Shown here one piece after another: positions 33,841 through 35,643 of a stretch of 64,000 bases of DNA. The notes below the pieces were generated by a model. It did no database searches and was not told where the DNA came from. It saw nothing but the letters and a program-made list of their open reading frames with translations. A program made the translations under genes and the position numbers. The DNA lies in assembly GCF_000193225.1 (NCBI RefSeq), contig NZ_AFAL01000350.1, positions 1 to 64,000 on the forward strand, given 5' to 3'. The DNA is from Verminephrobacter aporrectodeae subsp. tuberculatae At4. GTDB lineage: Bacteria > Pseudomonadota > Gammaproteobacteria > Burkholderiales > Burkholderiaceae_C. Every line of letters starts with the position of its first letter. The first letter of the stretch is position 1.

Positions 33841-34185
33841 ATGGTGGTCAACATGGACGAGACGCGGCGCACGACGATCGCGCAAATTGAGCAGTTTTTG
33901 GTCGCCAGCGCGGTGGTGCAATTCACCCCCAGCCAGGACGATGAGGAGCGCTACGCACACATCAGCCGGGTGCTCAAACGCTTTGACTATTCCTGCGCCT
34001 CGGCAAGGCCGACAAAGGGGTGCTGCTGCGCTACCTGGGCCACACCAGCGGCTACAGCCGCCAGCAGCTCACGCGGCTGGTCTCCCGCTGGCAGAGCAAC
34101 CGCCTGGCACCTACCCCACTGGTCAAGCGCTACATGGCTCCAAACGCCCCGTTTGCACGCAAGTACACCAGCGCCGATATGTATA
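33841..34185 (+). pseudogene. N-terminal fragment of an integrase-core transposase, frameshifted
   Basis: Two partial frames together resemble the N-terminus of a large integrase-catalytic-type transposase found in several Burkholderiales: IAQIEQFLVASAVVQF and YAHISRVLKRFDY in one frame, then GKADKGVLLRYLGHTSGYSR and QQLTRLVSRWQSNRLAPTPL with FARKYTSADM in the next. The frame changes at about 33994-33998, where one base seems missing. After about 34185 the resemblance stops, and the catalytic domain is absent. No terminal inverted repeats were recognised. It is a dead remnant between rpsO and the aroG leader. Confidence 0.6.
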
Positions 34186-34344
34186 TTTGCCATCGCCATT
34201 GGTTGCCGCATGCATGTGGAACTGGAAGCGGCGTAATCCGTGCTCAGGCGGCTATGGACGACTGACGGGCGTTGCATGGCCTTGGCACCAACTGTTTCCA
34301 CTGGTTCGTGCCGCCCGGCGCGCAGCTGTGCTACATTGCCCGCC

Positions 34345-34401
34345 ATGCAAGCGCACGGCAGGTCTTACTTCTGGTCCTTTATCTCGCCCCCCGGCGGATG
34401 A
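34345..34401 (+). CDS. putative aroG leader peptide rich in aromatic residues
   Basis: An 18-residue frame reads MQAHGRSYFWSFISPPGG. Codons 8, 9, 10 and 12 are Tyr, Phe, Trp and Phe, the very end products that DAHP synthase leads to. The frame ends just inside a sequence (CGGCGG, 34392-34397) that can compete with the downstream terminator. This is the arrangement of trp- and phe-type attenuators. The weak point is that no good ribosome-binding site precedes the ATG. It is located 178 bases before the aroG start. Confidence 0.6.
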   Translation: MQAHGRSYFWSFISPPGG

Positions 34402-34471
34402 GAGGCGCGCGCGCAAGCAGACACGAGCTCCCCCTACCAACCGCCGACGCTCCCGGGCCCGGCGGTTTTTT
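34392..34471 (+). promoter_or_regulatory. transcription attenuator upstream of aroG
   Basis: AACCGCCG (34439-34446) pairs with CGGCGGTT (34460-34467) and is followed by six T (34466-34471), forming a terminator. The same CCGCCG (34441-34446) can instead pair with CGGCGG at 34392-34397, inside the last codons of the leader peptide. A ribosome stalled at the Tyr-Phe-Trp-Ser-Phe codons (34366-34380) would leave 34392-34397 free and favour the antiterminator; one reaching the stop codon (34399-34401) would cover it and allow termination. The mutually exclusive pairings are visible in the sequence; the mechanism is inferred. Confidence 0.7.
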
Positions 34472-34522
34472 CGTTTTTCAGCCCTTCCGCTCTCATTCAT
34501 CACGTCTCCACGAGGAAGCCCC

Positions 34523-35643
34523 ATGACGGCCCAAGCCACCCCTCCAGCGATGCCTGGTACCGCAGCGTCGAGAAAACCAGCCAGACCGACGACGAACGCA
34601 TCAAGGACATCACCGTGCTGCCCCCTCCAGAGCATCTGATCCGCTTTTTCCCGATCCGCGCAACGCCGGTCGAGACGCTGATCACCCAGACCCGCAAAAG
34701 CATCCACCACATCATGGCGGGCAAGGACGACAGGCTGTTGATCGTCATCGGTCCCTGCTCGATCCACGATCCGGCGGCCGCACTCGAATACGCACGCCGC
34801 CTCGCGGCAGCGCGTGCGCAGTACGCCGACACCCTGGAAATCGTGATGCGCGTGTACTTTGAAAAGCCGCGCACCACGGTGGGCTGGAAGGGGCTCATCA
34901 ACGACCCCTACCTGGACGAGAGCTACCGCATCGACGAGGGCCTGCGCATTGCGCGCCAACTGCTCATCGAGATCAACCGCCTGGGCGTTCCGGCCGGCAG
35001 CGAGTTTCTGGACGTGATCTCGCCGCAATACATCGGTGATTTGATCAGCTGGGGCGCGATCGGCGCGCGCACCACCGAAAGCCAGGTGCACCGCGAGCTG
35101 GCCTCGGGCCTGTCCGCGCCCATCGGCTTCAAGAACGGCACCGACGGCAACATCCGCATCGCCACCGACGCCATACAGTCGGCGGGCCGGGGGCACCACT
35201 TCCTGTCGGTGCACAAGAATGGCCAGGTGGCCATCGTCAACACCAAGGGCAACAAGGACTGCCACGTCATCCTGCGCGGCGGCAAAGTCCCGAACTACGA
35301 TGCCGCGAGCGTCGCCGCCGCCTGCAAGGACCTGCAGGCCGCCAAGCTGCCCGCCACGTTGATGGTCGATTGCAGCCATGCGAACAGCAGCAAGCAGCAT
35401 GAAAAGCAGCTCGACGTGGCACGCGACGTCGCGGCGCAACTTGCAGGAGGATCGCGCAGCGTCTTCGGCCTGATGATCGAAAGCCACCTGAACGCGGGGG
35501 CCCAGAAATTCACGCCGGGCAAGGATCTGCCGGTCACGCTCGAATACGGCAAGAGCATTACCGACGCCTGCCTGGGTTGGGACGATTCACTGCGGGCCCT
35601 GGCGGATCTGGCGCACGCCGTGCAGGCGCGTCGCGCACGCTGA
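34523..35643 (+). CDS. aroG: 3-deoxy-7-phosphoheptulonate (DAHP) synthase, class I (frameshifted near the start)
   Basis: DAHP synthase joins phosphoenolpyruvate and erythrose-4-phosphate, the first step of aromatic amino-acid synthesis. ATG 34523, preceded by GAGGAA, opens MTAQATPP, but the conserved SDAWYRSVEKTSQTDDERIK is in the next frame and continues through LPPPEHLIRFFPI to the stop. One base appears missing at 34541-34546. Restoring it gives 373 residues, normal for AroG/AroF/AroH. Core motifs include LIVIGPCSIHD, FEKPRTTVGWKGLINDP, GARTTESQ and VDCSHANSSK. An attenuator with aromatic codons lies upstream. Without correction, translation could only begin later, for example at 34615, losing the N-terminal arm. 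Confidence 0.92.

Follow-up and report, generated by a model that had tools for sequence, protein, structure and literature searches.

Results

A leader frame and alternative hairpins precede aroG

The window, by which we mean the whole stretch of 64,000 nucleotides of Verminephrobacter aporrectodeae subsp. tuberculatae At4 that was analysed, carries an aroG gene preceded by a short reading frame rich in aromatic codons and by four segments that can pair in alternative combinations (Table 1). The aroG product is a type I DAHP synthase (its score for the AroG-specific model NF006723 falls just below that model's own cut-off), and aroG is the first gene of aromatic amino-acid synthesis. The leader frame, with two Phe, one Tyr and one Trp, runs from an ATG at 34345 to a TGA at 34399-34401; in a relative of the same genus (L002) the leader reads MQVRSAFYFWFFISVPGG up to its stop codon. 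Segment 3 is common to an antiterminator formed with segment 2 (2:3) and to an intrinsic terminator formed with segment 4 (3:4), which contains a second CGGCGG at 34460-34465, and segments 1 and 2 can form a pause hairpin (1:2). The terminator T run ends 51 nt before the aroG ATG. Further upstream, the frames 33841-34236 and 34020-34265, neither with a Pfam match (E up to 0.01), overlap in different reading frames, as the parts of a frame-broken gene would.

A first-pass annotation of this DNA had already placed the ATG, the aromatic codons, both CGGCGG, the CCGCCG, the stop codon and T6, all of them rightly when checked against the sequence, and had located the first CGGCGG (34392-34397) in the final leader codons, where segment 2 indeed overlaps the last codons and the stop. 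The site is as it described, but it had missed the 1:2 pause hairpin, a promoter box by the ATG and a break in the aroG frame.

Table 1. Elements of the aroG leader region, in window coordinates
Feature	Position	Strand	Remarks
Extended -10 promoter element TGTGCTACATT, hexamer TACATT at 34332-34337	34327..34337	+	7 nt before leader ATG
Leader ORF, MQAHGRSYFWSFISPPGG and stop	34345..34401	+	Predicted to be translated from a leaderless mRNA; aromatic leader in 70/70 family loci read
Regulatory aromatic codons, Tyr-Phe-Trp-Ser-Phe	34366..34380	+	Common family form FYFxYFWFS or FYFYFWFS
Segment 1, 5' arm of pause hairpin 1:2	34374..34388	+	Fold of -14.9 kcal/mol with 34393-34406
Segment 2, 5' arm of antiterminator, core CGGCGG 34392-34397	34392..34406	+	Overlaps last leader codons and stop
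Segment 3, core CCGCCG 34441-34446	34433..34446	+	Common to antiterminator 2:3 and terminator 3:4
Intrinsic terminator 3:4, arms 34439-34446 and 34460-34467, T6 34466-34471	34439..34471	+	Fold of -15.8 kcal/mol
Shine-Dalgarno-like GAGGAAG of aroG	34512..34518	+	Downstream of terminator; from sequence
aroG, DAHP synthase, controlled gene	34523..35643	+	PF00793 E 5.4e-94; TIGR00034 aroFGH above cut-off

aroG is not open throughout: its frame breaks between the ATG at 34523 and 34615, from where an open frame is listed. The break, at or close to a run of C, may be an assembly error or a real lesion. One could imagine that the unit is decaying in this genome, a reading compatible with attenuation, since the start of aroG is open in the four relatives compared (L002, L003, L004 and L130) and the window leader, with four aromatic codons, scores lowest of the 70 family loci. 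However, no second aroG match was found in this genome (90% complete, 1082 contigs), the rest of the gene is open for 342 residues that are 92% identical to the same-genus relative, the leader still forms the expected fold states, and in a draft of 1082 contigs assembly errors are likely at such a run of C. We regard decay as unlikely.

Taken by itself the window sequence proves nothing, and it is conservation in relatives that decides. Dinucleotide shuffles fold as well as the region itself (z 0.44), and a simple pattern scan found neither a promoter-like nor a terminator-like site here; internal-loop terminators lie outside the scope of that scan, and the folded window terminator is a hairpin with an internal loop. 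Among the Rfam covariance models, none reached its gathering score at the window site, and five relatives compared with Rfam at up to E 1 gave two sub-threshold matches only, both in L141 (RNAI, 26.2 bits with gathering at 47, and Leu_leader, 24.3 bits with gathering at 50).

The aromatic leader is conserved upstream of aroG

We sought aroG in 150 genomes of the family and found it in 149. Upstream DNA was read at 70 family loci, namely the window and the 69 best-matching relatives of the 149, which are not a random draw because they were chosen in this way. A further 80 named loci, chosen as the best of more than 590, were included, and one locus (L089) was dropped as too short. An aromatic leader was scored where a short frame no more than 450 nt upstream of the aroG match held at least four aromatic residues in eight. 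Such a leader precedes aroG in all 70 family loci read, as against an aromatic frame in 10 of 149 on the reverse strand, so that the leader frame, in a test set beforehand, is conserved in relatives.

Over all readable loci the leader was found in 139 of 149, four of these being judged spurious on inspection, and shuffled sequences gave an aromatic frame in 51 of 745 cases, counted before some loci were turned to gene orientation. The frames rejected after inspection were those of L128, L129, L135 and L142. No leader was found at 10 of the 149 aroG-like loci, Cupriavidus (L109, L111) and Polynucleobacter (L099, L100, L103) being among those without an aromatic leader within 450 nt; so at these loci the element has been lost, replaced or attached to another copy. 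In the analyses that follow, two duplicates (L084, L123) stand outside the 133-sequence pairing set, L102 outside the promoter table, and L102 and L113 outside the near set of 109 loci, which is made up of the 70 family loci, with the window among them, and 39 of the 48 named loci L071-L118.

The leaders are 18 to 32 residues long (135 loci), with FYFGYFWFS and FYFYFWFS as frequent forms, followed by GG or GGRE, and with a variable C-terminus. Phe codons occur in all 109 near-locus leaders (mean 4.37, window included), Tyr codons in 107 (mean 1.60) and Trp codons in 100 (mean 0.95). Trp was present in 115 of the 133 leaders of the first sequence set and, by our own count, in 13 of 34 leaders fetched from other families, being absent from the other 21. 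The codons themselves vary synonymously among the near loci (Phe, 294 TTT and 182 TTC; Tyr, 116 TAC and 58 TAT). The first-pass annotation had proposed a leader that senses Tyr, Phe and Trp together; all three codons are indeed frequent, but Phe dominates and Trp is missing from most of the other-family leaders, and judging from codon content the order of sensing should read as Phe first, with Trp common and not universal.

Among the near loci segment 2 lies at a nearly constant distance from the last aromatic codon (sd 2.1 nt), whereas its distance to the stop is variable (sd 6.7); segment 2 is followed by 9 nt to the end of the stop codon in 16 of 109, by 24 nt in 48, and by up to 36 nt. A ribosome at the stop codon would therefore cover segment 2 to differing degrees.

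The alternative pairings are conserved through joint changes

In the 133-sequence set, for which segment 2 was picked by best pairing and the tail of L117 was trimmed by hand, the five-base core of 2:3 pairs at all five positions in 129 sequences and at four of five in the other 4. Choosing segment 2 by best pairing is a mild bias, because the core is nearly fixed. At the position outward of the core, 98 of the 133 sequences carry a matching triple across segments 2, 3 and 4 (C-G-C in 82, T-A-T in 13, A-T-A in 2 and G-C-G in 1) and 13 more keep 2:3 by a G-U pair, while 2:3 is unpaired in 18 and 3:4 in 5, and 4 sequences pair 2:3 without pairing 3:4. These joint changes are counted as sequences, and the evolutionary events behind them are few.

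In three genomes (L053, L056 and L067) segment 3 reads CCGTC in place of CCGCC, and segment 2 reads GACGG or GACGA, which gives an Asp in the leader where relatives have Gly; segment 4 is still G-U paired. Because segment 2 follows segment 3 though 3:4 keeps its G-U pair, the change in segment 2 points to selection on 2:3 itself. Pairing in the 2:3 flanks averages -9.19, compared with -7.99 (sd 0.15) after swaps between species, and none of 100 swaps was as low; shared base composition and relatedness may still contribute to this difference.

In the close family the core of 3:4 hardly varies and has no double change, and RNAalifold on 61 close relatives returned the terminator only, with no covariation. 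A recount on 171 sequences, in which segment 3 was mis-set in L180, L183, L184, L192 and L195, is not relied on. Across the 133 sequences the alternative pairings are thus conserved with compensatory changes, and the mutually exclusive hairpins that had been proposed around CCGCCG hold up, folding in the window at -19.9 kcal/mol (2:3) against -15.8 kcal/mol (3:4) and sharing a conserved segment.

A promoter box adjoins the leader ATG

An extended -10 element ends 5-10 nt before the leader ATG in 106 of the 109 near loci, as against at most 1 of 109 in each of the other 6-nt windows from 11 to 64 nt upstream. The base preceding the leader ATG is C in 105 of 134 leaders. When start regions were paired with the 16S end, an anti-SD energy at or below -5 kcal/mol was obtained for 1 of 109 leader starts versus 63 of 108 aroG starts. 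A promoter box by the ATG and the near absence of ribosome-binding sites make it probable that the mRNA starts with the leader AUG. The ribosome-binding site had previously been described as weak; hardly any site is found, and a leaderless start explains this better than a poor site does. The conserved box likewise predicts a transcription start that coincides with the leader ATG or lies only a few bases away, and not downstream of 34401.

The leaderless form is not universal: in most Burkholderia and Massilia types no box adjoins the ATG, and many of them have a -10-like hexamer 23-39 nt upstream. In several other families (L162-L195) a -10 box seems, by eye, to lie immediately ahead of the leader ATG. 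This distribution may reflect repeated gain or loss of the leaderless form.

In the folding model, the order of synthesis decides which hairpin wins

We modelled the folding of the leader with a ribosome placed at successive positions, either before segment 4 had been made or with the whole leader present. With segment 4 unmade, a ribosome at the penultimate aromatic codon yields 2:3 in all 109 near loci, and one at the last aromatic codon in 96 of 109; of 1090 shuffles of the region, 411 had segment 3 paired with any upstream sequence at all. The window forms 2:3 at all four stall positions and, without a ribosome, 1:2. The near loci without a ribosome are divided (44 form 1:2, 49 form 2:3 and 16 neither), so that an untranslated leader need not terminate. 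Since a modelled stall at each aromatic codon gives the antiterminator before segment 4 appears, the leader in the model follows an OR logic, whereby a stall at any Phe, Tyr or Trp codon would lead to the antiterminator at the early stage.

Once the whole leader is made, a ribosome at the stop codon gives a predicted terminator in 109 of 109 near loci. At equilibrium the full leader does not favour the antiterminator: with the ribosome at the last aromatic codon the terminator is predicted in 104 of 109, and the antiterminator appears at any tested stall position in 15 of 109, in the window at the last stall position only. Because the terminator is favoured in the full leader even with a stalled ribosome, the antiterminator must, according to this model, win through the order of synthesis, that is, during transcription. 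In the known trp attenuator the decision is likewise made during transcription.

The element extends beyond the family

A covariance model was built from 61 leader regions; with six base pairs it is mostly a sequence model. It recovers the window at E 1.1e-18, and nothing else in that genome scores better than E 0.58. Of the 200 order-level genomes searched, 60 match at E 0.001 or better, six of them from the family (the window's own and five more), and some of the 60 are matched over the terminator only. Outside the family there were 44 full-length matches with E below 1e-4, of which 34, from 13 families, were fetched. All 34 have aroG downstream, so that the order leader, terminator, aroG is kept in 34 loci of 13 further families; 33 of their leaders have at least four aromatic residues in eight and the remaining one has 3. 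Six weaker or partial matches (L196-L201) do not lie in front of aroG.

A class-level search matched 21 of 276 genomes, three of the family among them. Outside the order it gave four full-length matches at E 1e-6 or better, from two families, all before aroG (60-63% protein identity), and three weaker full-length matches that are not before aroG. The matches L209-L211 do not lie in front of aroG. At L209 (201-350), which belongs to a non-member genome of the order, the short frame MIHNLPQIGRIYYFRPAGSVCLLKT contains Tyr-Tyr-Phe; a strong hairpin and a T run come next, and then a gene that by eye resembles a membrane transporter. This is possibly another aromatic attenuator, on a transporter.

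Discussion

We conclude that the element is, very probably, a ribosome-mediated transcription attenuator of aroG. Its anatomy, its conservation, the joint changes of its segments and the fold predictions are what the analysis shows; the start site, translation, stalling, termination and the response to amino acids are what we infer. Judging from the promoter box, RNA polymerase would begin with the A of the leader AUG or a neighbouring base, in which case the 5' AUG itself would load the ribosome. Under a shortage of charged Phe-, Tyr- or Trp-tRNA, the ribosome would stall in the aromatic codons and cover segment 1, segment 2 would pair with segment 3 before segment 4 is made, and polymerase would read through into aroG. 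When all three charged tRNAs are plentiful, the ribosome would reach the stop codon, segment 2 would be wholly or partly covered, and the 3:4 terminator would form.

The terminated, leaderless RNA of about 125 nt and its aromatic-rich peptide might in addition act in trans, and the leaderless start might make the switch respond to the state of ribosomes and initiation factors along with the charging of aromatic tRNAs, throughout Burkholderiales and in some relatives, but we give this wider proposal little chance. Less probable still is that the leader is primarily a functional small protein, or that the terminated RNA acts in trans, with the control of aroG secondary. Such a role has a precedent in Sinorhizobium meliloti, where, according to passages of PMC7298713, the trpL attenuator RNA and leader peptide act in trans, and the GGRE motif, which lies outside the aromatic run, is widely shared too. 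GGRE falls, however, in segment 2 and is under pairing constraint, the length and C-terminus of the leader vary, and the strong matches fetched from outside the family stand before aroG without exception.

It is also very hard to credit that the hairpin merely terminates an upstream unit, with an aroG promoter after 34471 and an incidental aromatic frame. The GC-rich hairpin with its T6, the separate Shine-Dalgarno-like site before aroG and the unexceptional fold energy of the region would all fit. Yet the aromatic frame is present at every family locus read, the promoter box precedes nearly every near-locus leader, segment 2 changes with segment 3 in three genomes although 3:4 does not need it, and the order of leader, terminator and aroG is kept in the further families. 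Finally, a metabolite-binding RNA or an RNA-binding protein almost certainly does not choose between the same hairpins independently of the ribosome, for although mutually exclusive hairpins leave the sensor unspecified and nearly half of the near loci form 2:3 unaided in the model, the frame is conserved, its aromatic codons change synonymously, the spacing from them to segment 2 varies little, and the Rfam families all score below gathering here.

Ribosome-mediated attenuation of this kind follows a familiar logic. The pheL-pheA and trpL-trp leaders of E. coli use the same three hairpins, 1:2, 2:3 and 3:4, as the aroG leader; unlike it, each senses one amino acid and has a Shine-Dalgarno sequence before the leader. 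E. coli aroG itself is controlled by TyrR, not by attenuation. Leaders that read several amino acids are known from the multivalent ilv attenuators, for branched-chain rather than aromatic amino acids. The mechanism as such is known, including for a DAHP synthase in Corynebacterium and, in leaderless form, for the trp leader of Sinorhizobium.

The E. coli pheL-pheA and trpL-trp systems, described in PMC11802643, also resemble the aroG leader in combining a stall at codons of the pathway's own amino acids with an intrinsic terminator. In Corynebacterium glutamicum, passages of PMC11802643 and PMC7356990 describe the aroR-aroF attenuator (Neshat et al. 2014), in which a leader peptide with Phe-Tyr-Phe residues precedes a DAHP synthase operon, as in our case; Phe limitation raises its transcription, and Tyr availability is reported to have no effect. 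It differs in belonging to another phylum, and these descriptions, by which we compared the two, mention no Trp codon for aroR. The S. meliloti trpL RNA (rnTrpL/peTrpL) begins with the ATG of the leader ORF, according to PMC7298713, and is thus a leaderless attenuator, as is predicted for the start of the aroG leader; unlike the latter, it controls trpE(G), senses Trp and has a 14-residue leader.

Among the open papers that our searches listed we found no earlier description of an aroG attenuator in Burkholderiales. The main text of a Burkholderia cenocepacia start-site paper (PMC4603805) does not mention aroG, the main text of Naville and Gautheret (PMC2965389) contains neither aroG nor DAHP nor aromatic, PMC1183508 has none of the terms sought, and the part of PMC2864571 concerned gives the name 'Burkholderiales-1' and no more. 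Merino's database of predicted attenuators, which is mentioned in a passage of PMC1173090, may hold an automatic prediction of the element.

The aroG leader is a concrete candidate, widespread in Burkholderiales, for the point at which the first committed step of aromatic synthesis is controlled. Its many natural variants with and without a predicted leaderless start would make the effect of leaderless loading on ribosome-polymerase coupling measurable and, for strain engineering, the leader would be a simple element to remove for relief of aroG control.
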